64,000 nucleotides of DNA from Geminicoccaceae bacterium (GTDB taxonomy: Bacteria > Pseudomonadota > Alphaproteobacteria > Geminicoccales > Geminicoccaceae). Shown piece by piece: positions 29,022 through 51,743 of this stretch. The stretch lies in contig JANQNY010000031.1 of the NCBI GenBank assembly GCA_028279345.1, forward strand, positions 124,001 to 188,000, read 5' to 3'. Position 1 is the first letter of the stretch, and every line of letters begins with the position of its first letter. Below the pieces are notes generated by a model. It was not told the DNA's origin, did not search any database, and was given only the letters and a program-made list of their open reading frames with translations. The position numbers and the translations under genes are program-made.

Positions 29022-29055
29022 GGCTTCTTTCCCTCAAAGGGCTGGAGGCGGCCGG

Positions 29056-30081
<1,026 letters not shown>

Positions 30082-34703: not shown

Positions 34704-36686
34704 ATGTCGACCGCGGCCGCCGCGAGCGTCAGCAGACCCGCTGACATGAGGCTGCACTTGCTCGGACCGGTCCGGCTGACCGACCCTCGGGGTGCGCCGA
34801 TCGCGGTCCCGTCGCGAAAGTGCCGGGCGCTGCTGGCGTCGCTCGCGCTCGGCCCTGGCGGCCGCGTCACGCGTGCACGCCTTGCGGAGCTGCTTTGGGG
34901 TGATCGGGCGGAGCCGCAGGCGAAGGCCTCGCTGCGCCAAGCCATGCACGAGCTTCGTCGGATCCTTGTCGACGTGGGGGCCGAGGACGCCATGATGGCT
35001 GACCGCGAGCACGTGGCGCTCGATCTGGAGCGGCTGCTCGTCGATGCGTTGACGGTCGTCGATGAGGCCGCCACGGCGTCGCTCGTTGAGCTGGATGGTC
35101 GTCTGGGCGAGTGGCAAGGCGACATCATGAGCGACCTGGACGGCCTTTGCCCCAGCTTCGACGAGTGGCTGCGCGAGGAACGTGCCCGCTGCCGCGACTT
35201 GGTCGTCCACGCCGTCATGAGCCGGCTCACAAGTGAGCCGCCTTCGGACCTGGTGCTGCGGCTGGCGCGCGTCATCGTGCGCGTCGATCCTACGCACGAG
35301 CCCGGCCATCGGCTGCTGATGCAGCTCTACGCTGCACAGAACGATCGTGGTGGTGCGCTCGCGCACTACTCGCGGATCGAGCGCTTCTTCGAGGAGGAGT
35401 TTGGTGCGGCGCCACACGAGGCGACCCGCGAAGCGGCCATGGGGCTCGCCGAGGCAGCGGCGCCCGGTTTTGCGGCCACGCCTGTGCGCACCGTTGGCAG
35501 GCGGCCACGCCTGCTCATCTGCGATCCCGTCCGCGATCCGCCCGACAAGGGGGACGGCTCGGGCGCCGCCGTTCTCCTCGACGACCTCGCCTTCATGCTC
35601 GAGCGTTCCCAGGAGATCGATCTCGTCCACCTGGACGACATGTCCGGCAACACGGACGAATCGGACCTCCACGACTTGATGCTTCACGCCAAGGTCCGGA
35701 GCGCTGGAGAGTTGGTGCGCGTCTATCTGTGGATGACGCCACCGTCCTCGCGTCTGCGGGTCTGGTCAGAACGGTTCGACGTGCCGCTGCACGCACCGCC
35801 CCAGGTGGCTGACCGCACGACCGCGCGGCTTGCCGCAGCGGTGCTCGCCGGCGTCGCCGGCCAGATGCAGACCATGGAGGTTACGGGCGCGGACGGTCGC
35901 ACCGCCTCCTATGCGCACTTCATGCGCGGCCGGACCCTGGTCGATGTCATGCCGACCCGCGACCGCTTGCGGCAGGCGATGGCGCACTTCGAGGACGCGG
36001 TCGCCGACGATCCGCGCAACCTCATCGCCACGATCTATCTCGTGCGTCTCCTGAACACGCAACTCTTTGAGACCGAGGTCGGCGCGGACCCGGCACCGGC
36101 CCGGCAGCGGGCGCGCGAACTCGCCACGCGCGCGTTCGAGCTCGACCCCCGCTCGGCCATCGCCAATGTCATGGTGGGCTGGTGCAATCTGCGCCAGCGC
36201 CGCTTTGGCGAGGCGAAATGGTATATCGAGCACGCACTGGAGCTCAATCCGCATCACCCAGAACGCCTGACCGACGCTGCGACGGCGTTCATGTACCTGG
36301 GCGATCACGAGCGCGCGCTCTCCTGCCTCGCCGACGCGCTTGCCATGGGCCCGGCGGGCGTTGACCAGCGCTGGGCTGATGCCCTCGAAGTCCATGTGAT
36401 GCGGCGCGATTTCGCGACCGCCCTGGAAGCCGCCGACAAGCTCCGCAGCCTCGACACCAGGCGGCTCGCCTGGCTCTGCGTCGCCGCCGCGCACGGCGAT
36501 CGGCCAGACCGTGCAGCCGTCGCGAAGGACGGGCTGCTTGCGCTCGGCGAGACGATGTGGGTGGGCGACGACAGCTTCACGCCCGCCCGCCTGGTCGAGT
36601 GGCTTTTTCATCAGCTGCCCTTCGCACGGAGCGAGGACGAGATCTTGTTCCGCCGCGGCCTAGAGATGGCCGGCGTGCCGGTCTGA
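34704..36686 (+). CDS. BTAD (SARP-like) transcriptional regulator with TPR tail
   Basis: Protein of about 660 residues. The N-terminal winged-helix DNA-binding domain (MRLHLLGPVRLTDPRGAPIAVPSRKCRALLASLAL, RLAELLWGDRAEPQAKASLRQAMHELRRIL) is followed by the bacterial transcriptional activation domain (PTHEPGHRLLMQLYAAQNDRGGALAHYSRIERFFEEEFGAAP). A central CadC-like stretch and TPR repeats follow in the last 250 residues (ARELATRAFELDPRSAIANVMVGWCNLRQRRFGEAKWYIEHALELNPHHPERL). Starts at 34665, 34704 and 34746 are possible; 34704 has GAGGGAAG upstream. It converges on and overlaps tfuA by 27 bases, making it the likely regulator of the YcaO-TfuA operon. Confidence 0.85.
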   Translation: MSTAAAASVSRPADMRLHLLGPVRLTDPRGAPIAVPSRKCRALLASLALGPGGRVTRARLAELLWGDRAEPQAKASLRQAMHELRRILVDVGAEDAMMADREHVALDLERLLVDALTVVDEAATASLVELDGRLGEWQGDIMSDLDGLCPSFDEWLREERARCRDLVVHAVMSRLTSEPPSDLVLRLARVIVRVDPTHEPGHRLLMQLYAAQNDRGGALAHYSRIERFFEEEFGAAPHEATREAAMGLAEAAAPGFAATPVRTVGRRPRLLICDPVRDPPDKGDGSGAAVLLDDLAFMLERSQEIDLVHLDDMSGNTDESDLHDLMLHAKVRSAGELVRVYLWMTPPSSRLRVWSERFDVPLHAPPQVADRTTARLAAAVLAGVAGQMQTMEVTGADGRTASYAHFMRGRTLVDVMPTRDRLRQAMAHFEDAVADDPRNLIATIYLVRLLNTQLFETEVGADPAPARQRARELATRAFELDPRSAIANVMVGWCNLRQRRFGEAKWYIEHALELNPHHPERLTDAATAFMYLGDHERALSCLADALAMGPAGVDQRWADALEVHVMRRDFATALEAADKLRSLDTRRLAWLCVAAAHGDRPDRAAVAKDGLLALGETMWVGDDSFTPARLVEWLFHQLPFARSEDEILFRRGLEMAGVPV

Positions 36687-37412
36687 AAGGTTGCGCCGGC
36701 AGCGTACCCGTTCGAGCTCGCGACGGTGGAACATGTCCTCGGGTGGTCGGGCGACGTGCGGCGTGGGCGAAGGCTGGCCTAGCGATGCCACGAGTGCGAG
36801 GGCGTCCTCGCGTTTCAAGGAATAGCTGTCGGAGCGAAGCGAGGTGAGCAGCTCCGTCGGTGGTCGAGTTCGCGCAGGCAAGCTTGCCAAAGCCGAGATC
36901 AGGGCGTCCACGGTGCGACGCGTGAAGTGGATGGCGCGCACTGCCTCGAGCCAGTCGTCGAGTCTGGCATCTCGCATGCCGAACGCGTCGATGGCGCGCC
37001 TCATACGCGCCTCGACGTCGACGAGAGCAACGGTAAGAGGCTTCCAGCACAGCGCGGCGGGCGCATGCGCCACGGCGACGTCACCGTCGCGCGTACGGCG
37101 CCCGGCGGCGTAGTCCGCGGCGATCCGACCGACGGCAGCCATGCCGAATGCGCCGAGCTCGGCGGCCCGAAGTGCCCCCATGCTGGCGGCACCGAGTACG
37201 GGCAAGCCGGCCGCCAGAGCCCAGAGGAGTTCCTTGTGGCGCACCGCCGCGCGGTCGCCGAAGAAGCCGTCGACGATGGCGATACGCGTGGCGCCGGCCA
37301 GGACCGCGTCGTACACGTCGCCTGCAGCAACGGGCGGGACAAGCCTGACATCTGAAGGGAGTGGCGGTGGCTTGGGCCACAGGCTCGGCCCGGCGAAGAG
37401 CCAGGTCGTCAT
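36660..37412 (-). CDS. TfuA-like protein, YcaO partner
   Basis: Protein of 250 residues of the TfuA family, named after the trifolitoxin cluster and known to assist YcaO enzymes in thioamide formation. Family blocks are AIVDGFFGDRAAVRHKELLWALAAGLPVLGAASMGALRAAEL and GRIAADYAAGRRTRDGDVAVAHAP, followed by RMRRAIDAFGMRDARLDDWLEAVRAIHFTRRT. The start overlaps the ycaO stop by 4 nt (ATGA). It is the last gene of the minus-strand operon and ends inside the convergent regulator gene. Confidence 0.9.
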   Translation of the reverse strand: MTTWLFAGPSLWPKPPPLPSDVRLVPPVAAGDVYDAVLAGATRIAIVDGFFGDRAAVRHKELLWALAAGLPVLGAASMGALRAAELGAFGMAAVGRIAADYAAGRRTRDGDVAVAHAPAALCWKPLTVALVDVEARMRRAIDAFGMRDARLDDWLEAVRAIHFTRRTVDALISALASLPARTRPPTELLTSLRSDSYSLKREDALALVASLGQPSPTPHVARPPEDMFHRRELERVRCRRNLSDRHAGHL

Positions 37413-38470
37413 GCGGCCTCAGCGCGCTCATTCGTGAACGCGTTAAGCAGGCCCGGCACGATCACTTTGACGAAGACGACGTCGCGGCTTGGGCAAGGTA
37501 GGTCGACCACGAACACGCTGGGGAACCCGGCGCCACCTAGAGCGCCCGGCAAACGCTCGAGGTCGCAGCGATCGCCCGTCGGGCCCTGCCACGCAGCGAC
37601 TGGTCGACGCGCCAGTCGGGCAAGCGCGTCTTCGACCCCTGCCGCATAGTCGTCTGCGCATAGGTCGTCGCGGGCACCAGCTATGCGCGTGACCCGCGAC
37701 TGCACGCACTCCAAGAGCGCCCGTACCGCCGCTGGGGCGAGCTCGACGTCGCAAGCCGCGCCAAAGACGGGCGGCGCCAGCTTCGCGGCGGCGGGTAAGC
37801 TCGCTTTGACCGTGAAGGTGCCGGCCAGACTAGGCAGCAGCCACAAGCGCGGGCGCAAGCGCCGCTCGTGTAGTCGCGACAGCAGCAGCTGCAGATCCCT
37901 GTCTGGCGGCGCACTCTCAGTGTCGAGTTCGCGGATGACCCGGGGCTCTGCCGTGGCGGCGGCCAGAGCGTGCCGTTCGAGAGCTTCGAGCAGCCCGTGC
38001 CGGATCGCCAGTCGCCGGTCGCGATGGCCAGCGAGCCCGTTGCTCGACCTGCGCAAACCCGAAAGTTGGCAGGCGCGCGTCAGATCGAGCGCGGCCATGT
38101 CGAGCGGGATCCGGACCGGCTCGTCGTCCGGCCATGATCGCGCTTGGATCCAGGGCGTAGTCTGCTGGTCTAGATCAGTCGGCCAGCGCTGGTCATTTCC
38201 TCCGCTCTCGCCATTCTCGACCTCCGGGGGTGCTTCGGCCGCCAACAGCTCCAGGGCTTCGAGGACGGCGCCGAGCCAGGCCTCGTCGGGGCGGAGCCCC
38301 TTCCCCTGTGAGACCGCGAAGTTGCGCGACCAGGGCCTGACAGCGCCGAAGACGGGAATGCCGAGATCGTCCAGATCCGTCAGGTCGGCGACCCGGGTGA
38401 TCCCAAGCTTCGGGAGCTGTGGCTCCAGTCGACGGCGCAGCGCCGCATGCGGGTTCTCAGAGCTCGACAC
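37409..38470 (-). CDS. YcaO-family ATP-dependent cyclodehydratase/thioamidase
   Basis: Protein of 353 residues. YcaO enzymes activate backbone amides with ATP to make azolines or, with TfuA, thioamides. Visible features are ITRVADLTDLDDLGIPVFGAVRPWSRNFAVSQGKGLRPDEAWLGAVLEALE, then RHGLLEALERHALAAA and VRALLECVQSRVTRIAGARDDL, the three ATP/Mg-binding blocks of the family with their Glu and Arg. The C-terminus lacks the PxPxP tail typical of azoline-forming enzymes, which favours the TfuA-type thioamidation branch. GTG at 38470 was chosen because conserved sequence starts there, and it overlaps the preceding gene by 14 nt. Confidence 0.9.
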   Translation of the reverse strand: MSSSENPHAALRRRLEPQLPKLGITRVADLTDLDDLGIPVFGAVRPWSRNFAVSQGKGLRPDEAWLGAVLEALELLAAEAPPEVENGESGGNDQRWPTDLDQQTTPWIQARSWPDDEPVRIPLDMAALDLTRACQLSGLRRSSNGLAGHRDRRLAIRHGLLEALERHALAAATAEPRVIRELDTESAPPDRDLQLLLSRLHERRLRPRLWLLPSLAGTFTVKASLPAAAKLAPPVFGAACDVELAPAAVRALLECVQSRVTRIAGARDDLCADDYAAGVEDALARLARRPVAAWQGPTGDRCDLERLPGALGGAGFPSVFVVDLPCPSRDVVFVKVIVPGLLNAFTNERAEAA

Positions 38471-38915
38471 AGCCCGCGTCGGTCGGATTGCTGAGCACGT
38501 CGCGGTCGGCCACTGCGGCCGCGAAGGCCAAACCAACCAGGGAGGGGCTCTGCCGGGTCCGTGCGTTGAGACGTCGTCCGCGCGCATCGGTGATCGCCAC
38601 GAGATGACGCGAGGCGTCCAGCCCATTGAGCAGCCAGACGGTTTCCTGTCGCCGCAGCACGACGAGCGTCGTCTGCAAGATATCGGCATGCGCGGTCGTG
38701 AGCGGCCCCGCGACCGGATCCAGCTGAGCGCCGTCGAAGGAGAGTGGATCGTCGATGAGCTCGTCAGCGTGGTCCACCCACGCGGCGAAGCCCAGACGTA
38801 CGAGGAACGGTGAACGGTTCGACCGCCGGATGGTGTCGGCGTCGTCGACTTGGACAAGTTCATCGACACCCACGTCGAAGATCCAGCCTCCGAGGCGCAA
38901 GATCAGTTGGGACAC
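38457..38915 (-). CDS. Two-repeat 152-aa protein of the YcaO-TfuA operon
   Basis: No family recognised. The protein contains an internal duplication: around residues 33-50 RSNRSPFLVRLGFAAWVDHAD and around 119-138 RTRQSPSLVGLAFAAAVADRD share the pattern SPxLVxLxFAAxVxxxD. Each copy is preceded by an acidic beta-rich stretch. It ends in DAGCVEL with a lone Cys. There is no signal peptide and no obvious cleavable core. Its place directly before ycaO, overlapping it by 14 nt, makes it either the substrate of YcaO-TfuA or a binding partner. It lies 45 nt after the zincin gene. Confidence 0.6.
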   Translation of the reverse strand: MSQLILRLGGWIFDVGVDELVQVDDADTIRRSNRSPFLVRLGFAAWVDHADELIDDPLSFDGAQLDPVAGPLTTAHADILQTTLVVLRRQETVWLLNGLDASRHLVAITDARGRRLNARTRQSPSLVGLAFAAAVADRDVLSNPTDAGCVEL

Positions 38916-38960: not shown

Positions 38961-41195
38961 TCAGTCGCTTGACGCTAGGCGGTCCGCGACGGTGGTGATC
39001 GCTGCGGCTGTCAGCCTGGTGCCGAGCTCGTCGGAGGGGCCACCGGCGTGCGTGTTGGTAAGAGCCAGGCTGGTGCTTGCGACGCGCCGCGCCGAACGGG
39101 CCACGAGGCTTGTGGGCAGGTCGTCGCGCAAGAGCATCGCGATCGCGGTCTCGTGCAGAGACCGCACCCCCTCGCGCCAGTGGTAGCCTGGTGCCACCGT
39201 CGCTTGTCGCAACTGGCGCTCGAGCGCCAGCTCGAGACCGGCGCCATCGCTTGCCTCGCGGACGGCGATACGGTCCTCGAGGTTGGTCATCGCGCCGGCT
39301 AGACCGGCCGGCAATGAGTCCCGCCGGGCAGCAAGCCACGCGAGGTCGGAACCATCCGACGCAGCGTTGCGCTCACCAACGACCGCAAGCCCCAGTCGCT
39401 CATCGGCAAAGAGCCGATCCAGGTCGTCGCGCTTGGCCGTTGCTGGTGGGTGAACGACGACGTCGGTCGACGTCTCGAGCGCCCCGCCGAGTATGGTCGT
39501 TACGCGATAGGTCCCGGGTTCGGTGAAGTGGCAGCCCCAGCCGAAGCTCAACTGCAGGCGGGCGGTTCGCCGCTCGCCTGGAAGCAGCCACGCCAGACCG
39601 GCACCACAGTCGCGACGGGCGGAGACAAACGGTTCGGTGGGACCACCCCGACGCTCGATCTCGACAACGACCTGACCACCCGCCGGGTCCAAGTCGGCCG
39701 GGACGAGGCGCGGCTCGGCGGTGTTGTTCTCCACGGCAAACCAGCCGATGACCGGTTCGCCCAGCTCAAGCTCCCGCGGCAAGTGCATCTGCAGGCGCAT
39801 TTCGTCTGCCCGCTCCGCATCATCGGCCATCGCGCCGAAAAGGCGGTCGAGTATCGGATCGACGGCCACGAGCCCGTCGAACGTGAACGCGCCCCCGCCA
39901 GCTTCCTGAAGCCCGCGCCCGGCGGTCGATGGGACGTCCTCGCCCAGCATGTGCTTTTCGATGGCGCCACCAGGACGGGTGGCGTGCTCCCAGCCGTGGC
40001 GCAGATGGATGAGTTCGTCGTGCCCGAACGTGCCGTCGAAGCGGCGCCAGAAGAGCGTGCGACACTCATCCTCCTCCAACGGTGGGCGCGCGGAGCCGAA
40101 CGGGTATCGGTTCGGATAGTTCATGAACGTCGCGAGGGTGGCGCGCCGCGGCTGCGGTCGATGCGTGGTCTGATCGGCCTCGAACGCGTGCAGCAGGTTG
40201 AGTGCGTGGCCCAACTCGTGGGTCGCTGCAAAGCGCAGGGCGCGGCGGCGGTCGCCGCCAGCCCAGGCGTCGCCGCCGGCTGGCTCGACGCAGAGCGCAC
40301 AACCTCGGCGCGGATGGTGTTGCGTGCTGAACATCGTGCCCACGACCTGCGGGCGGTCTTGAAGCCGCGCGACTACGGCGAGGGCGACGCCCCAGTTCGA
40401 AGCCGGCGCCGTGCCTGGGCCGGCCACGAGCTCATCGAGGTCGGCCGGCGACCATGCAAGAAGCTCGTTCCGCACCTCCCCGTTCAGCGCAGGGTCCGAG
40501 CCTTCCAGCGCGTTGAGCAGGCGCTCGCCGCAAGAGGGTGACCGCCGCGCAGGCTCGACGACGCTCGACACGGCGATGCCGGCTCGCGAAAGCGCCCCTT
40601 CGACGGTGTCGACCGCGCGGTCCCTGGCATCGAGGTCGACATTGAACTCGGCTGCCAACGCGTCGGCGCAGCGGAAAACGGCGACCGCATCGCGCACATT
40701 GGGTGTCGCACGCAGGAGCGCGTCGGGTCGACACGTCAAGTCAAGTCGCCTGAACTTGCCCGCAGCCTGCTGCCGGCATACGGCTTCGAAGACCCGGGTC
40801 GAGGTGCGTCGGCCGCCAGCTTCGGAGAGGGGCGACGGCGTCTCGAGCCGCTGAAGGTGAAGCCGCCCAACGCCATGCGTCGGGTCGAGGTCGAATTCCA
40901 AGAGGTAGACCGACCGGCGAGCGGGTGTTTCGGCAAACGCCTGAATGACGTAGTCGCAGCCCTGGTAGCGGACTTCCGCCCGAAACTCCTCCGCGCGCCG
41001 TCCGTCGACGAGCACACGGCCGCTGATGGCGCCGACCGCCGCCGGGTCGAAGACATCCACGCGCAGCTCCTCGACCGCCAATGCGGCGGAGGCGTGCTCC
41101 GCCTCGCGGAGGAAGAATCTTGACGTGTCCACTGCCGGCTTGGAAGGCCCCGTTGGGATCCAGACGCCGTCGAACCGATCATCCGAAGATAGCAT
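38961..41195 (-). CDS. Large zincin metallopeptidase of the YcaO-TfuA operon
   Basis: Protein of 744 residues with a zincin active site, ATHELGHALNLLHAFE: His326, Glu327, His330 and third ligand His336 (HExxHxxxxxH), as in metzincin-like peptidases. MNYPNRYPFG about 35 residues later may supply the Met-turn. The N-terminal 250 residues are beta- and then alpha-rich with no recognised family. The C-terminal part from about 440 has a beta-sandwich-like region (LELGEPVIGWFAVENNTAEPRLVP) and a helical tail. No signal peptide is evident, suggesting cytoplasmic action or a non-Sec route. First gene of the operon; a GATAAT-like -10 lies at 41283-41278. Processing of the operon's product, or a host-directed protease, are both possible. 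Confidence 0.7.
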   Translation of the reverse strand: MLSSDDRFDGVWIPTGPSKPAVDTSRFFLREAEHASAALAVEELRVDVFDPAAVGAISGRVLVDGRRAEEFRAEVRYQGCDYVIQAFAETPARRSVYLLEFDLDPTHGVGRLHLQRLETPSPLSEAGGRRTSTRVFEAVCRQQAAGKFRRLDLTCRPDALLRATPNVRDAVAVFRCADALAAEFNVDLDARDRAVDTVEGALSRAGIAVSSVVEPARRSPSCGERLLNALEGSDPALNGEVRNELLAWSPADLDELVAGPGTAPASNWGVALAVVARLQDRPQVVGTMFSTQHHPRRGCALCVEPAGGDAWAGGDRRRALRFAATHELGHALNLLHAFEADQTTHRPQPRRATLATFMNYPNRYPFGSARPPLEEDECRTLFWRRFDGTFGHDELIHLRHGWEHATRPGGAIEKHMLGEDVPSTAGRGLQEAGGGAFTFDGLVAVDPILDRLFGAMADDAERADEMRLQMHLPRELELGEPVIGWFAVENNTAEPRLVPADLDPAGGQVVVEIERRGGPTEPFVSARRDCGAGLAWLLPGERRTARLQLSFGWGCHFTEPGTYRVTTILGGALETSTDVVVHPPATAKRDDLDRLFADERLGLAVVGERNAASDGSDLAWLAARRDSLPAGLAGAMTNLEDRIAVREASDGAGLELALERQLRQATVAPGYHWREGVRSLHETAIAMLLRDDLPTSLVARSARRVASTSLALTNTHAGGPSDELGTRLTAAAITTVADRLASSD

Positions 41196-41463: not shown

Positions 41464-42300
41464 TCAGACGGCCTGATCGAGCCTTCGGAGCTGCTCCTTT
41501 CTGTCTTCGCGGAGCAGGTCCATGTTGAGGTCGCGGCTGGCCTCGAACCAGCTCTCATGCAGCTCGACGGCGAGCGCGCGGACGAGGCGGAGGCGGCTCT
41601 CGAGGTTAGGGAAGATCCGGACGACGCGGGTGCACCTGCGGATCTCCTCGTTGATGCGTTCGAGCATGTTCGTCGATTTCATGTGTTTGCGGTGCTGACG
41701 TGGCAGCCGATAGAAGCTGAGCGTCGGCTCTATGTTGGCTTCCACCCAGTCGCAGAGCTTGGGATAGGTGGCTTGCCAACGCTGCAGCCGGGCGGCGAGG
41801 TCGCGCAGAACTTCCTGGCCGTCGCGGCGGTCGTCGAGCCAACGCAGCTCTTGCAGGCAGTCGTCGTCGACCATCGCGCGGCAGGAGTTCGCGCGATCCG
41901 ATGGCGAAGCTGCGGCGATCTGAAGATCGCCGAGGGGGCGGCACGTGGTCGAGCGCGTTCCTCCGAACATGCACGTAGAAGCGGTGGTGGACGGCCTCGG
42001 GCAAGAGCTCCTCGATTGCGCGCCGCAGCCCCGCATGGTCGTCGGTGACGACGAGCTCGACGCCGACGAGCCCGCCGACCTTGAGAGCCAGGAGGAAGCC
42101 CTTCCAGCTTGACCGCTCACCCGCGCCGCGAGCTCGACGGCAAGGACCTGCCGCCGACCCTGCTAGTCGATGCCGAGCGCCATGAGCACCGCTTGGCTGC
42201 GGATGCACCATCCTCGCGGATTCTCTCGTAGCGGGTATCTAGGATCAGGTAGGGGCGCGTCGTCCCGTGGCCGGCCGGCAAAGCTAGGGCTGGAAGACGC
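41464..42300 (-). pseudogene. Degenerate IS256-family (Mutator-type) transposase
   Basis: Remnants of a DDE transposase in all three minus frames. PYLILDTRYERIREDG (about 42270-42215) continues in another frame as IRSQAVLMALGID. GLVGVELVVTDDHAGLRRAIEELLPEAVHHRFYVHVRRNALDHV follows (about 42090-41960), and finally YPKLCDWVEANIEPTLSFYRLPRQHRKHMKSTNMLERINEEIRRCTRVVRIFPN (about 41770-41600) to a stop at 41464. The order matches intact IS256 proteins, but the N-terminal third is missing and at least two frameshifts are present. No terminal inverted repeats could be paired. Confidence 0.85.
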
Positions 42301-42325: not shown

Positions 42326-43672
42326 TCAAGCGCGGCGGCGCGAGTTCCGTGCGCTGCGCCGCGCGCTCGCACCGCGCAGCGCGCTCAAGGTGGCTGCCGA
42401 CACTTTCCCCGTTCCGTCACGCGGGATTCGGTCCACCACAAATATGCGGCGCGGCACCAGTACCGGATCGAGGTAGGCGAGCAGACGGCTGCGGATCGCG
42501 CTCTCCAACGCCTCGTCGGTGAGCTCCGCATTCTCCTCCGCGGCGGCAAAAACCTCGAGCGCTTCTTCGCCGTCCGGCGCCCGCGTCGCCACCGCGTCGC
42601 ACGGCAGCGATGCCGCGGCGAGAATGGCGTTGACCGCGCCGATCGTCGTGCGCTTGCCCGCGACAGATATCTGCTCGTTGCCCCGCCCCTCCAGACGCAC
42701 CGTGCCACCGCGCTGGAGCGAGAGACGGTCGGGAAGCACGGTCGGCGCAGGCAGATGCGGCGCTGTCGCGAACGAGACGTCTCCAGCCTGAGAGAAGGTG
42801 AACCCGGCCGCGGGTGTCCAGTCTTCCTCCCGAGCCGTCCGGCGGATCGCCATGGACCCGGCCTCCGTGCAGCCATAGATCTCAAAGACCTTCAGCCCAC
42901 GGCGCGCCTCCAGCCGCTCTGCCGCTTCCTGCGCGAGAGGTGCCGTAGCGGAGATGATGCCGCGCAACGCTGGTGAGCGCAGTGCCGCAGCATCGAGATG
43001 CTTGAGGTGCGCGGGTGTGGTAACCAGGACCGCCGCCGCGCGCGGATCACCCTCGAGCGTGGAAAGCGCGACCTCCAAGTCGGCTGCGTAGAAGACGGCT
43101 GGACGCCATGCCTCCGCCATGACGGTGAGCGGGGTCGCGACGGTCGCCTCGAGACCGTACATGTGTCGGTGAGGGGTCGTGCCGATCAGCACGATGCGCT
43201 CGGCCTCCGGCGCGATGCGCCGCGCCAGGACCATGGTCACTTCGGCACCACCGGCTAGCATCGCCCAGGTCTTGACGCGCCGGATCGGGGTAGCGGTGGA
43301 GCCTGAGGTAAAGACGTGAACCTCGCCTGCCGCGTGGGCGGCCAGATGCTGTGGCGTGAGCAGTGCGCCGTCGGCGCGGGCGCTCATCGAGGCCAGGCGG
43401 CAATCTTCCGGGACGACGAGCGCTGCGTCGTAGCGTTCGACGATATCGCGCAGTGCTTCGGTAGCCGCCGACGGTGGCAGCACGACCCTTTGGCCGTTGA
43501 GCAGCGCGGCAATGAGGATCACCGCGAATGTGCAGCGATCCGCGTGCATGTTCACGACGGTCGGGTGATGCGCGATCAGCGGTCGGGCGGCGGCGACCGC
43601 CTGCGAGAATGCCTCGAGGCCGACTACACCACCGACGGGTGCTGCGAACAGCTCGCGCGCAGCGTTTGTCAC
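42326..43672 (-). CDS. ApeH-like acyl/aryl adenylate-forming ligase
   Basis: ANL-superfamily enzyme of 448 residues, expected to activate an aromatic or acyl carboxylic acid and load it on the ACP. P-loop VFTSGSTATPIRRVKTW, YGCTEAGSMA (A5-like), GRGNEQISVAGKRT hinge, and PRDGTGKVSAATL with the catalytic Lys near the C-terminus are visible. GTG at 43672 overlaps the preceding gene's stop (GTGA); a longer start 57 bases upstream would lie inside that gene. It is the last gene of the aryl-polyene-type operon and ends near the IS256 remnant. Confidence 0.82.
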   Translation of the reverse strand: MTNAARELFAAPVGGVVGLEAFSQAVAAARPLIAHHPTVVNMHADRCTFAVILIAALLNGQRVVLPPSAATEALRDIVERYDAALVVPEDCRLASMSARADGALLTPQHLAAHAAGEVHVFTSGSTATPIRRVKTWAMLAGGAEVTMVLARRIAPEAERIVLIGTTPHRHMYGLEATVATPLTVMAEAWRPAVFYAADLEVALSTLEGDPRAAAVLVTTPAHLKHLDAAALRSPALRGIISATAPLAQEAAERLEARRGLKVFEIYGCTEAGSMAIRRTAREEDWTPAAGFTFSQAGDVSFATAPHLPAPTVLPDRLSLQRGGTVRLEGRGNEQISVAGKRTTIGAVNAILAAASLPCDAVATRAPDGEEALEVFAAAEENAELTDEALESAIRSRLLAYLDPVLVPRRIFVVDRIPRDGTGKVSAATLSALRGASARRSARNSRRRA

Positions 43673-44307
43673 CGCCCCGACTGCATCAGGAGTTCGGGTC
43701 TGGCCATGGCGCGTGCCGTGTCCAACCATCCTTCCGGCCGCTCATAACGTCGTTGCGCCAACCAGTGGGAGGCGAAGAACAGTATGGCCTCAGAGGCAAG
43801 CGCGACCGGCACGGCGCGCTCGGCGATGGCGCGGGCCTGTTCGCTCACCGCTGCGGCGACGGCCATGGCGGCAATGACAGCGGCCAGCGCGGTCCATGCG
43901 AGACACTGCCGTCGCACGAAGCCGAGGAAGGCGCCTTCTGCTTCCGGCCCCTTGCCCATAACCCGGATCATGCGAACGATGAGAGGTGTGCGGCGGGGCA
44001 GCAGGCTGGCGCCGAACACGAAGGCCAAGGCACCGTGAATCGCAGCAATCGGCGCCCAAGGCATGACGGCAACGCCCATCCACTGCCCGCCGGCAAGGAC
44101 GGTAGCGATCACCACGGCGCTCGCGGCGCGGCGCCAAACCGGCCAACCAAGGGAAGCAAAGATGCGGTCCGCGATGGCGATGAGCACGAGCGCAGCGGCC
44201 GCGACCCCGGCAGCTGCGCTCCACGGTTCCTCGCCGAAGGCACCGAACACTGCGAGCCCCGCCACAGCCGAAATCGACGCGAGCTTACCTTGTCCGACGC
44301 TGCGCAA
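43669..44307 (-). CDS. COG4648-type integral membrane protein of the polyene operon
   Basis: Membrane protein of about 212 residues with five or six helices. It resembles the small membrane protein found beside ACP and ligase genes in aryl polyene clusters, with RRTPLIVRMIRVMGKGPEAEGAFLGFVRRQCLAWTALA in the centre and ILFFASHWLAQRRY near the end. Function unknown. The TTG start at 44307 overlaps the ACP gene by 23 nt, but no closer start is visible, so the N-terminus is uncertain. Confidence 0.65.
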   Translation of the reverse strand: MRSVGQGKLASISAVAGLAVFGAFGEEPWSAAAGVAAAALVLIAIADRIFASLGWPVWRRAASAVVIATVLAGGQWMGVAVMPWAPIAAIHGALAFVFGASLLPRRTPLIVRMIRVMGKGPEAEGAFLGFVRRQCLAWTALAAVIAAMAVAAAVSEQARAIAERAVPVALASEAILFFASHWLAQRRYERPEGWLDTARAMARPELLMQSGR

Positions 44308-44572
44308 TGTGGCTGCTCAGACTGGCGAGGGAGGCAAAGATCTCCTCGTTGCGCTCGTCATCAGAGTTGAGCTTGAAACCGTACGTCTCGGCTATCGCGA
44401 AAGCGATTTCCAGGGCGTCGATGCTGTCCAGCCCCAAGCCCTCCCCGAACAACGGTGCGTGCGGATCGATGTCTTCCGGCGCGACATCCTCCAGATCGAG
44501 AGCTTGGACGATGAGCCGAGCCACCTCCAGCACGAATGCCGAGTCGGCCGGGGACTTTGACATCTCATCCAT
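44285..44572 (-). CDS. Acyl carrier protein of the aryl-polyene-type operon
   Basis: ACP of 95 residues with the phosphopantetheine site GLGLDSIDALEIAFAIAETYG (Ser50) between acidic helices. It carries the growing polyene chain. It is the only ACP in the operon, whereas characterised aryl polyene clusters usually have two. The start ATG at 44572 overlaps the flavin enzyme's stop by 8 nt; a second ATG lies 9 bases later. Confidence 0.92.
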   Translation of the reverse strand: MDEMSKSPADSAFVLEVARLIVQALDLEDVAPEDIDPHAPLFGEGLGLDSIDALEIAFAIAETYGFKLNSDDERNEEIFASLASLSSHIAQRRTR

Positions 44573-45863
44573 GGCTCATCGCCTTCCTCGCGTTTCGATA
44601 ATCCAACATGCGCCAAATGGCTTTGAAAAGCCAAAGACGCACATCGACCGCGGGTCGCCGCTCGAAATCGCCGGCGAGCAGTGAGATCACCGCACGCTCT
44701 ATTCCAAAAACGTCCTTTGGATTCAACAGCATTTCACGAAATGCCGGATTGTGTATACGGTAGATGAACCAGGAGACGAAGTGGATGCGCTCGCGTACCT
44801 TCTGGTTGTAGGCGGCGAATATCGTCGCTCGCTTTGCGTCGCTGCTGCGCGCCGTAAGAACAGCGTCCGCCGCTTCGGCCGCGCTGCTGAGGGCCAGGTG
44901 CACGCCGGTCGAAAACATGGGGTCGATGAAGCCGTATGCGTCGCCGACCTTCAGGTGGCCGGGGCCGGACGCCGTCTCGGCACGATAGGAGAAGTTACCG
45001 GTCGCTTGCATCCGCCCGGCCCGCGTCGCACCGACGAGCAGTTGACGCAGCGCCGGGTGGCGATCGCAATGCCTGTCGAAAAAGGCGTCGATACCGCAGT
45101 CGCGCTGCGACAGATAGGACGGCTCAGCGACGAGGCCGATGGACGTCAGTCCGTCCGGCAGCGGAATCTGCCACATCCAGCCGGGGTCGGTGAGATGGAT
45201 TCGGATCGCCCCGGCGAGCGAACCCTCCGCGCGCGGTACGCCGTGAAAGTGGCCAAAAATAGCCGCGGATCGGTTGTTCGGGTCGGGCTTTCGCTCGCGC
45301 CGCGTCTTGGCCATCAGCGCCGAACGGCCCGACGCGTCGATCAGCAACTCGGCACGGAGCGGGCGTGGCGCACGGCCTGCCTGCTTGAGCATAGCCACGG
45401 CGCCGGCCTCGCCGACGGAGATCAAGTCGGCCTCCGTCTCCTCGAGACACACCGCGCCCAGCTCCCGCGCCCGCTCGAACAACAGCGCATCGAACTGATC
45501 CCGCCGCACCTGAAATGCGTGGTCGGGGCCGGGGGTCAGCGACCGCGCAAAGGCAAAGCCGGCCGTTTTCTCACCGTCTGCCGAGACAAACTCCGCCCCA
45601 GGCTTGCGCACACCGATCGCAGCCACCCGCTCCAGCACGCCGAGACGGTCCAAGAGCGGCAATGAATGCGGCAGCAGCGATTCGCCGATATGGAAACGCG
45701 GATGCTTCTCGCGCTCAACCAGAACGCAAGCGAGGCCAGCTTCGGCCAAGAGCGCGGTTACCGCGGCACCGCCGGGGCCGCCGCCGATCACCAAGACGTC
45801 GCAGTATTCGGTGGCGACTTCGGCATCCACGCGCGCAACGTCGTCCAGTTCGACCACGGTCAC
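44565..45863 (-). CDS. Flavin-dependent halogenase-like oxidoreductase
   Basis: FAD enzyme of 432 residues. The Rossmann motif VLVIGGGPGGAAVTALLAEAG is near residue 24, HIGESLLPHSLPLLDRLGV follows, then VRKPGAEF with a Lys where halogenases place their catalytic Lys. PGWMWQIPLPDG carries the WxWxIP motif that distinguishes flavin halogenases from monooxygenases. VGDAYGFIDPMFSTGVHLAL is the second FAD contact. Homologues accompany aryl polyene and xanthomonadin clusters, where products can be brominated. Hydroxylase or dehydrogenase activity cannot be ruled out. GTG at 45863 overlaps the KR gene stop. Confidence 0.8.
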   Translation of the reverse strand: MTVVELDDVARVDAEVATEYCDVLVIGGGPGGAAVTALLAEAGLACVLVEREKHPRFHIGESLLPHSLPLLDRLGVLERVAAIGVRKPGAEFVSADGEKTAGFAFARSLTPGPDHAFQVRRDQFDALLFERARELGAVCLEETEADLISVGEAGAVAMLKQAGRAPRPLRAELLIDASGRSALMAKTRRERKPDPNNRSAAIFGHFHGVPRAEGSLAGAIRIHLTDPGWMWQIPLPDGLTSIGLVAEPSYLSQRDCGIDAFFDRHCDRHPALRQLLVGATRAGRMQATGNFSYRAETASGPGHLKVGDAYGFIDPMFSTGVHLALSSAAEAADAVLTARSSDAKRATIFAAYNQKVRERIHFVSWFIYRIHNPAFREMLLNPKDVFGIERAVISLLAGDFERRPAVDVRLWLFKAIWRMLDYRNARKAMSHG

Positions 45864-46579
45864 GTGGTTCCTCCGTCGATGCAGATGGTCTGACCCGAGA
45901 TGTATCCGGCTGCCTCCGAGGCGAGAAACGCGACGAGCGCTGCCACCTCCCAAGGATGGCCGGCTCTTCCGGACGCGCTGATGGAGACCAAATCGTCCCA
46001 GTTCTTCTCCTGCCGCGTCGCCGCCGTGTCGATCAGACCCGGGGCTACGACGTTCGCGGTCAAGCCGCGCGAGCCGTACTCACGCGACAGTGTCTTGATC
46101 AGCGGGTGTAGCCCGCCCTTGGCGGCGGCGTAGTTGCTCTGGCCACGATTGCCGGCCACGCCGGTAAGCGAGGAAACGGCGATGATCCGCCCCCAGCGCG
46201 TGCGGATCATCGGCATGATGATGGGCCTGAGTGCGACGAAGAAGGTGTTGAGGTTGACGTCGATCACGCTCGTCCATTCCTCGAAGGACATTCCGGCGAA
46301 GGGCTTGTCGCGATGCGCCCCGGCGCAGTGCACGAAAATCTGAAACGGCGCTTCGGCGGCTAACCGCCCCAATTGCTCCGCGCAAGCAGCATCATCTCCG
46401 AGGTCGAGCTGTAGTGCTCGAGCCGAACCACCGGCGCCGCGGATCGTCGCGGAAGTCGCCTCGGCCTTGGCGAGATTGACGTTGGCCAAGAGTGTGACGT
46501 CGTTGCCCGCGTTGGCCAGCGATTCAGAGACTGCAGCGCCGATTTCGCTCGACGCGCCGGTAACCAGCGCCCGCCTCAC
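45860..46579 (-). CDS. ApeQ-like 3-ketoacyl-ACP reductase (SDR)
   Basis: Short-chain dehydrogenase of 239 residues (FabG type) reducing beta-keto groups during polyene extension. TGASSEIGAAV is the NADP motif, HCAGAH the NNAG equivalent, and SSLTGVAGNRGQSNYAAAKGG the Ser-Tyr-Lys catalytic set. GYISGQTICIDGG is the typical end. GTG at 46579 overlaps the dehydratase stop (GTGA). Confidence 0.9.
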   Translation of the reverse strand: MRRALVTGASSEIGAAVSESLANAGNDVTLLANVNLAKAEATSATIRGAGGSARALQLDLGDDAACAEQLGRLAAEAPFQIFVHCAGAHRDKPFAGMSFEEWTSVIDVNLNTFFVALRPIIMPMIRTRWGRIIAVSSLTGVAGNRGQSNYAAAKGGLHPLIKTLSREYGSRGLTANVVAPGLIDTAATRQEKNWDDLVSISASGRAGHPWEVAALVAFLASEAAGYISGQTICIDGGTT

Positions 46580-47001
46580 CCTGCCGCCCCGAGCATCAAC
46601 AGCGCTGCGCCGGCGACGATCTGTCGCTCGAACCCCGTGACCGCGAAACGGTAGCGCGCGGCGCCGGTCGTTTCTCCGTCCAGCCATGCCGAGGCGTAAA
46701 GTGGCACATCGGGAACAGGTCCGGGTTCAACGGTCACACTCGTGAGGCCGACGATCACGCCGAGATGCATCTGCCGCACCGCCGTGAGCGAGGCGTGAGC
46801 CGCTGCGGCCTGCGCCCCGATCTCGACGAGAGCAATGGGGTAGAGAACGCCGCCGACCCTGAGCGGATAGTCGGCAGCCGCATGCGGTCGCGCACGCACC
46901 CGCACGCCTGCCGCATCGCTCTCCAACACCGAGTCCAGCAACAGCATCGGCGGCCGGTGCGGCATGCGCTCGAAGGCAAGGCGGGACAGCCGCTCAGTCA
47001 C
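46576..47001 (-). CDS. ApeP-like 3-hydroxyacyl-ACP dehydratase (hotdog)
   Basis: Hotdog protein of 141 residues. MPHRPPMLLLDSVLE near residue 12 is the family opening, followed by YPIALVEIGAQAAAAHASL and HLGVIVGLTSVTVE. In aryl polyene systems ApeP pairs with ApeI to form the active dehydratase. GTG at 47001 overlaps the CLF stop by 4 nt; a longer upstream frame runs through that gene and is rejected. Confidence 0.82.
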   Translation of the reverse strand: MTERLSRLAFERMPHRPPMLLLDSVLESDAAGVRVRARPHAAADYPLRVGGVLYPIALVEIGAQAAAAHASLTAVRQMHLGVIVGLTSVTVEPGPVPDVPLYASAWLDGETTGAARYRFAVTGFERQIVAGAALLMLGAAG

Positions 47002-47816
47002 GCTACCGGCTCCACCGACACATGCAGCGCGCGGCTGCCGCCTACGCCCAGGCGGATGACGTGTGCCGTTGCCGCGGCGCTGCCGGCGCCAATGATGGCG
47101 GAGAGCAATGGCACCGCGGCCGCTATCGGATTGCCTGTCTCCGCGAAACACCCAGCGGACGCGTTGTCCGGCGGCTCTAGCGGCTCTGGCACCTCATCCA
47201 CGAGCCGCCCCTCGATGACGGCAAGGTCCCCCGAAGCCGCCGTACTGGCTGGCGCCAGCGCCATCGCGAGCGCCATCGCGCAGTCGACCGGCCGCTTTTC
47301 ATGGAGTGGCGGCGGCAGCGGCCCATCGAACATGATGAGGCCGACTGCGCGTTGCTCGAGCGCCACCTGCATCAACGCCTTCAACAGCCCGACGCCCACC
47401 GTTTCATCGTAAGCCGCGATCGAGGTCGCCGGCCCCTGTCGTCGCGCGGCAATGGTCCATTGGCCCGCCGCGGCATTGTGGACCGAGTTCTGGAAACGTA
47501 ACGGCTGGATCAACAGGTCCGGGCGGCTGATCGCCTCCAAGATCACTTGCAGCGTCTCACCCTCGCCGGAGGACGAAGCAAAGACCCAACCCGCATCCTC
47601 CGGCAGCGCTGGCGCGACCTGCTCCGCGACGCTGAGCGCTAGGCGCGTATGCGGGCTGAGCCGTCGCGCTTCGCGAGCCGTGAGACAGGCCAACGTGGGG
47701 TTCCAGTTCGGCGCTGCCTGAATGTGGCCCCCGCCTAGCAGCACGCTGAAGGCATCGAGATCTGGAGCGAGGGGAGAAGCGAAGCCGGCTGTCTTGACCA
47801 CGGCACGCAGTGTCAT
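46998..47816 (-). CDS. ApeC-like ketosynthase chain-length factor
   Basis: Protein of 272 residues, a shortened ketosynthase-like partner lacking the active-site Cys. It has WVFASSSGEGETLQVILEAISRPDLLIQPLRFQNSVHNAAAGQWTIA, where the NSVHNAAAG block marks chain-length-factor proteins of aryl polyene clusters. With the KS encoded just upstream it should form the KS-CLF heterodimer that sets polyene length. ATG at 47816 overlaps the KS stop (ATGA). Confidence 0.85.
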   Translation of the reverse strand: MTLRAVVKTAGFASPLAPDLDAFSVLLGGGHIQAAPNWNPTLACLTAREARRLSPHTRLALSVAEQVAPALPEDAGWVFASSSGEGETLQVILEAISRPDLLIQPLRFQNSVHNAAAGQWTIAARRQGPATSIAAYDETVGVGLLKALMQVALEQRAVGLIMFDGPLPPPLHEKRPVDCAMALAMALAPASTAASGDLAVIEGRLVDEVPEPLEPPDNASAGCFAETGNPIAAAVPLLSAIIGAGSAAATAHVIRLGVGGSRALHVSVEPVA

Positions 47817-48994
47817 CGGCTGAGAACGAGCGCGCAGTTGTTGCCGCCGAAGCCGAAGGCGTTGGCAACGACGTGCTTCAAGGCGGCCGCCTGGGGTGCG
47901 TCCGGCACGCTGCAGGCGATGGCGGGATCGACGCGCCGCAACCCGACGCAACCGGGGATGACACCGTGCTCCAGTGCCAGAAGGCACATCGCGGTCTCTA
48001 CTGCCCCAGCAGCGCCGAGCGTGTGCCCGACCGCGCCCTTGAGGGAGGACACCGGGGTCGTCGCGCCGAACACCTCGGCGACGGCGCGGCACTCGGCGAC
48101 GTCGTTGGCCGGGGTGGCGGTACCGTGGAGCTTCACGTAGCCCACGTCCGATGGCATGAGTTCCGCGGCCGCCAACGCGCCGCGCATGGCCACCGCTGCG
48201 CCGGCGCCGTCCGCCGGCGGGGTGGACATGTGAAAGCCGTCCGAATTCTCGCCCGCACCGCTGAGCCGATAGGGCCCGTCCGCGGCGCGCTCCATCAACA
48301 AGAGCGCCGCACCCTCGCCTATGGAAAGGCCATCTCGCTCCGCGTCGCACGGTCGGCAAGGCTTGCGGGAGATGAGCTGCAGACCCTCGAAACCGGCTAG
48401 CGACGTGAGGCAGAGGCTGTCGATCCCGCCAGCGACCACGGCGTCGCACAAGTCTGCGCTTATGAGTTGATGTGCGTCGACCAACGCTTTCGCGGAGGAC
48501 GAGCAGGCCGTCGAGATGGTCCAGCAGGGTCCCGCTAGGCCGAGGCGCGTCATCAGATAGCTGGCAACTGCGTGATGGTCGTTGTGACGACGCATCGAGT
48601 ACTCCGCCGCAAGCGGCTCTTCGCCTCGGCGCGCGCGATAGGCCGTCTCCAGCTTCTCCACACCGGAGGTCGACGTACCCAGCACGAGACCAACGCGCTC
48701 CGGGCCCCATCGGCAAACGGCCGCAGTCACGCGACGGCCATAGCTGTCGGCCGCCAGCGCCGCCTCGGCGAGCCGTGTCGCGCGGTTGTCCCAGGCCTCG
48801 AGTTCGCTCGGGGGGGCACAGTCCTCGAGGCCCGGTACCGCGCCGACATAGCAGGTAAACGGCGTGTCATAGACTTCACAGGGTGCCAGACCGCTCCGCC
48901 CGGCGCGAAGTGCCTCCGCATGCACGCGCCCACCGGCACCGAGGCACGTCGCCAAAGCGAACTCGGTGATGGCGATCGGCTCCCGCGCGACCAT
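47813..48994 (-). CDS. ApeO-like beta-ketoacyl-ACP synthase
   Basis: Condensing enzyme of 393 residues. Catalytic Cys in TISTACSSSAKAL, His in HGTATPANDVAE and His in LKGAVGHTLGAAGAVE are all present, followed by NAFGFGGNNCALVLS. ATG at 48994 was preferred over TTG at 49003 because AGGA lies 9 bases before it and the MMPL gene stops just upstream. The second condensing enzyme (ApeR-like) seen in typical clusters is absent from the window. Confidence 0.92.
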   Translation of the reverse strand: MVAREPIAITEFALATCLGAGGRVHAEALRAGRSGLAPCEVYDTPFTCYVGAVPGLEDCAPPSELEAWDNRATRLAEAALAADSYGRRVTAAVCRWGPERVGLVLGTSTSGVEKLETAYRARRGEEPLAAEYSMRRHNDHHAVASYLMTRLGLAGPCWTISTACSSSAKALVDAHQLISADLCDAVVAGGIDSLCLTSLAGFEGLQLISRKPCRPCDAERDGLSIGEGAALLLMERAADGPYRLSGAGENSDGFHMSTPPADGAGAAVAMRGALAAAELMPSDVGYVKLHGTATPANDVAECRAVAEVFGATTPVSSLKGAVGHTLGAAGAVETAMCLLALEHGVIPGCVGLRRVDPAIACSVPDAPQAAALKHVVANAFGFGGNNCALVLSR

Positions 48995-48996
48995 TC

Positions 48997-51201
48997 CTAC
49001 CAATCCTGCACCTGATTTCTGGCCGATTCGCCATGTGACTGCGCAAGATTGAGTATTGCCATTGCGCCCAGCCCGACAAGTACCGTGGCGCCGATTTCGG
49101 ACAGGATCGGCTCCGGAGAGGCGGCCATCACGGCAAACGGGATCGCCGTCGAGGTGGCGCAGAGGCCAACCGAACGCAGCGCGCGACGGCGCTCCGCGGC
49201 ACCATGAGACGGCTGAACAAGCACGCCATAGTCCAGACCGATACCAACCACGAGCGTCAGTGCGACAATGCGGAAGACGTCGAACTCGACACCGAACAGG
49301 CGCAGCGCACAGACCGTCGCGCCGAGCGCGCCGGCCGTCGTTAGGGCGACTCCGAAGGCGACGCGACGCGGGCGAAGCAGCAGCAAGAGGGTCACTGCGG
49401 CAGCGGCCGAGCCCACAACCAGCCAGTCCAGCGCGGCACCGCTGAGCGCCGCGAGCCGCCCCATCGTCTCCGCCGCGTTGTCTGCCAGCCGCGCGCCGCC
49501 GCTCTGCTCCAGGCGCGTCGACAAGGCCTCAGCGTCCCTGACGTCGTAGAGCCGGGCGGAGAGCGACCAGCCGTCGCCGTCTCTCTGTGGCAGAGGCACG
49601 AGCTGCGCTAGCTGCTTCAGGTCCGGGCGCTCTGAGGCCGCGGTGCGCGCTTCGGCGTAGTCCGCCTCGAGCCGCTCCGCGAAGCCGGGATCAAGACCCA
49701 CGGTCGCCAACGCTTCACCCGCGACGGCTTCGAAATCGGCAGGCGGCGGCAGCGTGGCCGGCGCGGGGCGCACGAAGTCGGCCATGGCCTCGAAGCGGCC
49801 CAGGTCGCCAGCGTCCACCGCGGCCTCCAGCGCCGGCAGCGCCTCGCGCTGACGCGCCAGTGCCTGCGATTCCGTCGCGCCGGTGGAAACCACCGACCAG
49901 CGCGCCGACGGTGCCCGCGCTAGTTGGTTGATCTCTTCGAGCATCTCGGTCACGGCCGCCGGCGCTGTGGCCACCGCGCGCGGTGCCCCGACCGGCGCCC
50001 CCAGCACGGCTGCGAAACCAGCAAGCGCCAACGTTGCCTCGACGAGCCGACGCCGCGGCAGGCGCCAGGACAACCGCTCCATGGCGAACGTCCGCACGTC
50101 CGCCACGCCAACCGGTGGCGCTGCGAGCGCGAACCCGGCTGCGACCACGATGCCAACAGCGACGAACACGCCGGTCTGCTGCAGTGCTGGCACGCCCGAA
50201 CCCAGCATGGCGAGAAAGGCGACCGCGGTGGTCGCGGCGCCAATGGCAACCGCTCGGCGCGCGCGTGCTGCGCCCTCGCGTCGATGGGTCGCCAGATGGA
50301 GCGGGTAGTCGATCGCCAGCCCCGTCAACGCCCCGCCGAAGCCAAGCGCCAGGACGTGCACGTGGTCGAAGAGTAGTTGCACTGCCAAGGCCCCAGTGGC
50401 GAGGCCCGCGGCCATGGGCGCGAACGCTGTTGCAAGCGCCAAGGGCGAGCGCAGCGACCACGCCAGCCAGAGCGTGAGCAAGACGATCGCGATGCTGGCC
50501 ACGGCCAGCGAGCGCCGTTCCACACCACGGCCGATCTCGGCGCCGACCAAGCGGGGACCGGCGACCAACGCTAGCGCGCCGTGGGCAGCCGCTGCCGCCC
50601 GGACGGCATCGGCGAGTGCGACGAGATCACCGCCGCCGGCTACCTCTGGCGCCAACCTGCCGAAAACCAGTGCGGCACGCCCATCCACCGATGTCCAGAC
50701 GCCACCTGGCCCGAGTGCCGCGGGGCGACGTTCCCGCAGCTCCTCCAGGGTATCGGCGAACGCACCGGTCGGGTCGCGGAGCAGCCTATCGCCGAGCGCC
50801 GCACCTTCGGCCGTGGCGAGTGCTGCACGTGCCTGCTGGAGGCGCTGGGCCATCGCCTCCGGCGCGAAACGCTCGGGCGACGGCGGTGCGACCGCGAAGC
50901 GATTGCGCCACAGCCAGTCCAGCGCCGCCGGCTCGAACGTTCCCGGCCCCGCCGTCACCGTTTCAACGAGCGGAGATGCTTCGAGCACCGCCTGCACGGC
51001 CAGCGCCGCGGGTGCCTGCGCCTCCAATGGCGCCGGCACGGCCACGATGAAGTCGCGTACCGCGTCGCCGCCGAACACCGCACTCTCGCCGCCTGGCGAA
51101 AGCGCCGCGAGATCTGCACTCAGCGTCGTCAGGGCCGTCGCGAGCCAGACACCTACACCGGCCGCTGCTAGCGCCACGATGCATCTCGTGCGCGCGATCA
51201 C
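48997..51201 (-). CDS. MMPL/RND-family exporter
   Basis: Membrane protein of 734 residues with two repeats of one helix, a large periplasmic loop and five further helices. LAFGFGGALTGLAIDYPLHLATHRREGAAR-like and VVGIGLDYGVLVQPSHGAAERRRALRSVGLCATSTAIPFAVM are the MMPL domain blocks after each loop, with the conserved IDY and LDYG Asp residues. Expected to move the finished polyene lipid toward the outer membrane. The GTG start overlaps the LolA-like gene stop. Confidence 0.87.
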   Translation of the reverse strand: MIARTRCIVALAAAGVGVWLATALTTLSADLAALSPGGESAVFGGDAVRDFIVAVPAPLEAQAPAALAVQAVLEASPLVETVTAGPGTFEPAALDWLWRNRFAVAPPSPERFAPEAMAQRLQQARAALATAEGAALGDRLLRDPTGAFADTLEELRERRPAALGPGGVWTSVDGRAALVFGRLAPEVAGGGDLVALADAVRAAAAAHGALALVAGPRLVGAEIGRGVERRSLAVASIAIVLLTLWLAWSLRSPLALATAFAPMAAGLATGALAVQLLFDHVHVLALGFGGALTGLAIDYPLHLATHRREGAARARRAVAIGAATTAVAFLAMLGSGVPALQQTGVFVAVGIVVAAGFALAAPPVGVADVRTFAMERLSWRLPRRRLVEATLALAGFAAVLGAPVGAPRAVATAPAAVTEMLEEINQLARAPSARWSVVSTGATESQALARQREALPALEAAVDAGDLGRFEAMADFVRPAPATLPPPADFEAVAGEALATVGLDPGFAERLEADYAEARTAASERPDLKQLAQLVPLPQRDGDGWSLSARLYDVRDAEALSTRLEQSGGARLADNAAETMGRLAALSGAALDWLVVGSAAAAVTLLLLLRPRRVAFGVALTTAGALGATVCALRLFGVEFDVFRIVALTLVVGIGLDYGVLVQPSHGAAERRRALRSVGLCATSTAIPFAVMAASPEPILSEIGATVLVGLGAMAILNLAQSHGESARNQVQDW

Positions 51202-51743
51202 TCGCTTTCCGTCAGTGCGTACACCCGGCGCACGCCGCTCGTCTGGACGATCTCAACGCTTGAGACGGCAGGGCCGCATCCCGTTAGCGTCACGGCCTCG
51301 CCGGCGGTGAGCTGCCAACCGTTCTCGTCAGTGACGATGCGCGCGGTCGGCAGCACCTCTCCTAAACGGCCCGAGAGCAGCGCCCGTAGCAAACCGAACA
51401 GCTGCTGCGCCGCGTCGTCCATTGGCCAGTACTCGACGGCAAACTCTGGCGGTTTGCGTAGCGCGATCAGGGATGCGCCGATCTCGGCGATCTCCCGCGT
51501 TGGGGAGGTCTGGTGGCGCACCAGAGTGCCGTCCGGCGTCGCCGACAGCCGACCTCGAGCCCACAGTGGTTCCGGCGATGAGGGATGATGGATCGTCTCG
51601 ACGTAGGCCAATGCCTCGGCTGCCGGCGCGACAATCGCCGCCGGGCTCGCCGGCGGTGGTGCGTCACACGTCGTGGCTCCAGACGTCGTGGAAATTGAAC
51701 CAGTTAAAAGGATGGCGGCGGCATAGCATCTCCAGTTCCGCAA
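51198..51743 (-). CDS. LolA-like periplasmic carrier of the polyene operon
   Basis: Protein of about 181 residues. An N-terminal hydrophobic stretch (CYAAAILLTGSISTTSGA) resembles a signal peptide. The rest matches LolA-like proteins of aryl polyene clusters (LWARGRLSATPDGTLVRHQTSPTREIAEIG, then LLSGRLGEVLPTARIVTDENGWQLT). It would shuttle the lipid or lipoprotein across the periplasm. The start is uncertain: no ATG is available, the candidates are TTG at 51743 or 51758, and either overlaps the acyltransferase gene by 80-95 nt. Confidence 0.7.
   Translation of the reverse strand: MRNWRCYAAAILLTGSISTTSGATTCDAPPPASPAAIVAPAAEALAYVETIHHPSSPEPLWARGRLSATPDGTLVRHQTSPTREIAEIGASLIALRKPPEFAVEYWPMDDAAQQLFGLLRALLSGRLGEVLPTARIVTDENGWQLTAGEAVTLTGCGPAVSSVEIVQTSGVRRVYALTESE

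Follow-up and report, generated by a model that had tools for sequence, protein, structure and literature searches.

The window, a stretch of 64,000 nucleotides of Geminicoccaceae DNA, carries a four-gene operon in which a large zinc peptidase, predicted to be a metzincin, precedes a 152-residue protein (P152), a YcaO and a TfuA. Because it shares an operon with YcaO and TfuA, the zincin is probably a dedicated cutter that would free or trim a sulfur-modified peptide, a role not known for any protease of its type: the reading favoured here, with a probability of roughly 0.55, is that it acts as the processing protease of the YcaO-TfuA system, P152 being modified and then cut. The main doubt concerns P152, which could be the target of the zincin or of YcaO only.

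Gene and operon organisation

The zincin occupies a frame that stays open throughout (Table 1), while the plus strand of the same stretch is interrupted by stops. The GC content is 79% at third codon positions against 53% at position 2, and a full-length homologue with 46% identity is found in a second genus of the same family (genome G010, locus L005); on these two grounds the zincin is regarded as a real gene. Its exact start is uncertain, since the ATG at 41195 directly abuts an in-frame TAA and lacks an obvious ribosome-binding site.

The genes follow one another on the minus strand in the order zincin, P152, YcaO and TfuA, with a gap of 45 nt between zincin and P152, an AGGAG ribosome-binding site at P152, and overlaps of 14 nt between P152 and YcaO and of 4 nt between YcaO and TfuA. 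YcaO and TfuA are adjacent, and the YcaO motifs, which we take to be nucleotide-binding, are intact, identifying a YcaO-TfuA system. The preliminary description had placed the zincin in a YcaO operon, and the gaps and overlaps, together with the retention of the arrangement in the second genus, bear this out.

Immediately upstream of the operon, positions 41464-42120 contain the remnant of a Mutator-type (IS256-like) transposase, which may have altered the operon's promoter. Elsewhere in the window, inspection by eye revealed a resemblance of the region 22000-30000 to a nitrogenase cluster (nifH/D/K/E/N-like proteins), so that the host may fix nitrogen, and of the region 42326-54600 to an aryl-polyene-type lipid/polyketide cluster, with AMP ligase, ACP, ketosynthases, dehydratases and exporter.

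Table 1. Position of the operon genes, their predicted functional elements and related features; coordinates refer to the window unless a locus is given.
Feature	Position	Strand	Description
Metzincin gene	38961-41195	minus	744 aa; ORF open for 744 codons; first gene of the operon
Predicted zinc-binding motif HELGHALNLLH	40188-40220	minus	residues 326-336; putative ligands H326, H330, H336; putative catalytic E327
Met-turn FMNYP	40113-40127	minus	residues 357-361; M358
Ig-like beta domain	39447-39812	minus	residues about 462-583; best-modelled region of the window protein
Helical TPR-like C-terminal domain	38967-39440	minus	residues about 586-743; from the model of the window protein and the family model
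P152	38457-38915	minus	152 aa; candidate YcaO-TfuA substrate or precursor; 64% identity to the second-genus copy
P152 repeat 1	38757-38813	minus	residues 35-53, SPFLVRLGFAAWVDHADEL
P152 repeat 2	38493-38549	minus	residues 123-141, SPSLVGLAFAAAVADRDVL
YcaO	37409-38470	minus	353 aa; SSNGLA, EALER, ECVQSR and RDD motifs intact
TfuA	36660-37412	minus	250 aa; PF07812, 1.9e-34
BTAD/TPR (SARP-type) regulator	34704-36686	plus	convergent with the operon; 55% in the second genus
Gluzincin-type peptidase (examples)	L076:7760-8971, L118:7448-8701		among L068-L081 and L108-L125

Zinc site, domains and predicted fold

H326, E327, H330, H336 and M358 do not vary across 27 family members, and the zinc ligands and the Met-turn methionine are likewise unchanged in 27-41 members; this conservation led to the rejection of a chance occurrence of the motif and agrees with the complete active site (His326, Glu327, His330, His336) described initially. 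The Met-turn sits about 20 residues past the last zinc-site histidine, and the usual glycine of HExxHxxGxxH is replaced by asparagine, as in ulilysin and ADAMTS-4. Given the Met-turn FMNYP in combination with a HExxHxxNxxH motif, the window zincin is, as judged from its sequence, a metzincin. No signal peptide is visible by eye in its N-terminus, in line with the preliminary description, and the enzyme is presumably cytosolic.

The preliminary description had also called for a structural comparison, which was informative for a relative rather than for the window protein itself: the AlphaFold model of the window zincin, built with 27 relatives, reached a pLDDT of 53 and was unusable in the catalytic domain, whereas that of a Streptomyces member (L026), 24% identical to it, reached 83.6. 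Residues 193-419 of the L026 model align with adamalysins and ADAMs, acutolysin A reaching Z 11.2 across 169 residues (3.8 A) and PAPP-A2 Z 8.9 for the catalytic domain; residues 444-573 are Ig-like (BsuPI-type fold 3isy, Z 9.0) and residues 576-739 TPR-like (4y6c, Z 10.2). When Foldseek matches to the full model were ranked by E-value, the Ig-like domain dominated, and the metzincin matches derive from a second structural alignment. The catalytic fold of the family, judged on this representative and its confident model, is thus predicted to be that of an adamalysin/ADAM-type metzincin; for the window zincin, the fold rests on homology, since its catalytic region was modelled poorly.

Family membership and distribution

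The window zincin stays below the cut-off of every Pfam and NCBIfam model. Peptidase_M43 (pappalysin) scores 14.6 against the 23 bits needed, over 21 residues only, and the DUF4953 Met-zincin model 15.4 against 24.2 bits, over 30 residues, both below the curated cut-offs; the Pfam models of M12B (adamalysin/reprolysin) leave the window zincin unmatched, their best value among 41 members being E 0.0046, which does not reach the cut-off. Almost every weak metallopeptidase match among the 41 members involves a metzincin model (reprolysin, matrixin, M43, DUF4953, Mep72 and archaemetzincin), and family matches against PDB sequences cover little except the zinc helix. When the window zincin was searched directly against PDB sequences, the sole matches were antibody light chains with E near 1, regarded as chance. 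The initial statement that no peptidase family could be named holds insofar as all scores fall below the cut-offs, but it overlooked the Met-turn, which together with the adamalysin-like fold of the family makes the protein a recognisable metzincin.

A search of genome contigs yielded at least 41 relatives of the zincin. Among the matches listed, most belong to Nonomuraea, Streptomyces and other Actinomycetota, and the remainder include Algoriphagus, a Pyrinomonadaceae MAG, Novosphingobium, Microvirga and one Geminicoccaceae MAG, whose contig RECO01000140.1 (L006) has the same gene content as G010:C70; no relatives were found in phages or viral contigs. YcaO, TfuA and P152 were absent from the surroundings of the roughly 40 other zincins fetched among the matches listed, L140 included. 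The Geminicoccaceae zincin pair forms a separate long-branched clade (support 100, branch 3.98), and among the matches listed it alone sits in this operon, which indicates a general family with one divergent branch tied to YcaO-TfuA. A strong match to a known general metalloprotease family with unrelated contexts had been named beforehand as the result that would overturn the proposal: the family is indeed general and occurs in unrelated contexts, mostly in Actinomycetota among the matches listed, but it is an unnamed one. Since relatives elsewhere work without YcaO or TfuA, the zincin fold is not specific to the processing job, which speaks against the processing reading.

Some further features of the family were observed. 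The Novosphingobium silvae zincin ORF (L007:9425-12304) is 959 aa long, with a probable extension into an endonuclease/exonuclease/phosphatase domain, and one family member matches Exo_endo_phos at 6e-8. Directly downstream of actinobacterial and acidobacterial zincins, at up to 10 loci (among them L009, L010, L014, L019, L022 and L026), lies a Pfam-less family of about 170 aa, which by eye resembles a stand-alone Ig-like domain. A small SARP/BTAD-type regulator is located near the zincin in L014, L019 and L028, BTAD being confirmed for L028.

Conservation of the operon in Geminicoccaceae

In G010, which belongs to another Geminicoccaceae genus, the order zincin-P152-YcaO-TfuA is identical, P152 and YcaO also overlap by 14 nt, and the convergent BTAD/TPR regulator again comes next, with EamA and RadC genes after it. 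Identities between the two copies amount to 64% for P152, 58% for TfuA, 51% for YcaO and 46% for the zincin. Across 31 Geminicoccaceae genomes, TfuA is present in 20, whereas the zincin and P152 occur in two each, the same two, always together and beside TfuA.

These data bear on the possibility that the zincin lies beside YcaO-TfuA by chance or through a recent insertion and has no link to it. The generality of the zincin family and the transposase remnant upstream of the window operon would suit such an origin; the second genus, however, has the same arrangement without the IS, and both zincins found in the 31 genomes adjoin TfuA, making this the least probable of the readings considered. 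With only two examples of the operon found, their shared synteny could partly reflect inheritance.

Zinc peptidases at other alphaproteobacterial YcaO-TfuA loci

The comparison was extended to 38 other alphaproteobacterial TfuA loci. At many of them, a neighbouring protein ends in tandem repeats that can be read directly in the sequences (GGKQRFA, DMSARG, AGQMVG, GMNV, GQNIGQNV and MQSRAM, and at further loci DDSQRHAANFIGTTP, DADAGRWAVTP, VSGAR, AVMASR and DLVGRS); these proteins look like multi-core precursors, a kind of precursor proved in the case of thiovarsolin (PMC6511847). Such candidates (L110:8800-9726, L107:8928-9344, L076:9046-9927, L118:8758-9594, L069:7208-7699 and L079:9651-10052) contain up to about 20 tandem repeats, and many share the leader-like motif hxhRGADGRLYxVP. 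A third layout, the nearest to the window operon, was observed at L122 (5752-6867, 8789-9199), with a BTAD regulator, a non-repeat protein of 131-136 aa, YcaO, TfuA and a 370-aa protein that matches no family.

A gluzincin-type peptidase of about 410 aa (HExxH...HE(S/A)xxD), unrelated to the window zincin and lacking a Pfam assignment, is encoded at 13 of these 38 loci (alignment A6), usually beside a long protein that ends in tandem core-like repeats. In 367 genomes of the class, 20 of which carry TfuA, all seven strong matches to this peptidase (E below 1e-150) adjoin TfuA (Fisher p 5e-10 for the association), while four weaker, partial matches fall in TfuA-negative genomes. The 13 loci and the seven strong matches together indicate that zinc peptidases are a recurrent and specific component of YcaO-TfuA systems, and by analogy the window metzincin appears to occupy the place held by the gluzincin-type enzyme in the sister loci.

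Alternatively, the zincin might itself be modified by YcaO-TfuA, with P152 as a helper, as happens to McrA in methanogens, where a large folded enzyme can be the target (PMC5589413). The window TfuA and YcaO do score best against McrA-type models, though below cut-off. Modification is nevertheless not needed for the active site, since zincin homologues without YcaO-TfuA share it, and the peptidases at the sister loci adjoin clear peptide precursors; this alternative is accordingly considered highly improbable.

P152 as candidate substrate

P152 has no family match in Pfam or NCBIfam, was not detected beyond its own occurrence in 385 sampled genomes of the class, and was not found in plasmids. 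Its two halves are homologous (no equally good score in 2000 shuffles; hhalign E 4e-6), the best-kept parts being SPFLVRLGFAAW and SPSLVGLAFAAAVADRDVL. The N-terminus of the G010 copy, LLMRLGGRLYAVPTDEL, resembles the recurring leader LTLRGADGRLYFVPGDL, with weak statistics: a leader HMM gave 6.6 bits for the second-genus copy only, the window copy not being reported, and hhalign against the leader of other precursors reached at best a probability of 8% and E 0.004, which is a hint only. Neither a cleavage site nor a core boundary can be read from the two P152 sequences. A precursor role is opposed by the conservation of P152 right through to the C-terminal residue, which is not usual in precursors, and by its lack of the short tandem cores found at other loci. 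P152 may be either a precursor with two cores or a protein that is modified.

The same conservation over the full length, 64% and thereby higher than that of the enzymes, is partner-like, and would suit a system in which P152 serves YcaO-TfuA as adaptor or carrier and the zincin acts in the same system on another target, such as an effector, the BTAD-like regulator or a component of immunity or degradation. Zincin relatives do act without YcaO, some of them beside BTAD-type regulators. The recurrence of zinc peptidases at YcaO-TfuA loci with repeat-bearing precursors is better explained by processing, and we regard a different target as unlikely.

Proposed role

In the processing reading, YcaO and TfuA would use ATP to alter backbone amides of P152, most likely to thioamides, the two related segments being the likely modification sites. 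The metzincin would then cut P152, freeing or trimming the modified piece, and its Ig and TPR domains would perhaps grip the substrate. Release of a leader or core by the zincin is plausible by analogy with the sister loci. A broader version, advanced tentatively and at somewhat less than even odds, is that the metzincin was recruited as the maturation protease of a YcaO-TfuA system whose substrate is the whole twofold-repeated 152-residue protein instead of a short peptide, and that alphaproteobacteria, counting the gluzincins, recruited zinc peptidases to thioamide biosynthesis at least twice.

Comparison with known systems

With adamalysins/reprolysins (M12B: acutolysin A, ADAM10/17) and pappalysins (M43: ulilysin, PAPP-A), the window zincin and its family share the motif, the Met-turn and the predicted catalytic fold. 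It differs from both in scoring below the Pfam and NCBIfam cut-offs, with sequence alignment limited to the zinc helix, in having no visible secretion signal, and in carrying C-terminal Ig-like and TPR-like domains of its own. The operon also provides an initial way into the function of this metzincin family, which has no name and is common among Actinomycetota.

The metallopeptidases known to process RiPPs belong to M1, M16, M50, M61, M79 and M103/TldDE (PMC10885120); they are zinc or metal trimmers of modified precursors, and none is a metzincin. The word metzincin is absent from this 2023 review of RiPP proteases (PMC10885120), in accordance with the earlier suggestion that a large zincin releasing leader or core would be new for YcaO-TfuA systems. 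In the open full-text literature, metzincin combined with 'ribosomally synthesized' gives one unrelated paper, and the single peptidase brought up in a worldwide survey of TfuA clusters is prolyl endopeptidase S9 (PMC8120280).

In thiovarsolin biosynthesis, YcaO and TfuA thioamidate a repeat-bearing precursor (PMC6511847). As in that cluster (VarA, VarY = YcaO, VarT = TfuA), the window YcaO stands beside TfuA with an adjacent candidate precursor, and repeat-bearing precursors are present at loci related to the window. The thiovarsolin cluster lacks a dedicated protease (PMC6511847), and P152 has two long diverged repeats in place of short tandem cores. Known thioamide systems such as thiovarsolin depend on unidentified housekeeping peptidases for product release. 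A protease clustered with its candidate substrate would allow the YcaO-TfuA release step to be rebuilt from four genes.

The gluzincin loci resemble the window most directly in combining, within the same bacterial class, a zinc peptidase with YcaO-TfuA and a precursor-like protein. The gluzincin has the second-Glu ligand pattern, a length of about 410 aa and a precursor with short tandem repeats, whereas the window enzyme has a third histidine and a Met-turn.
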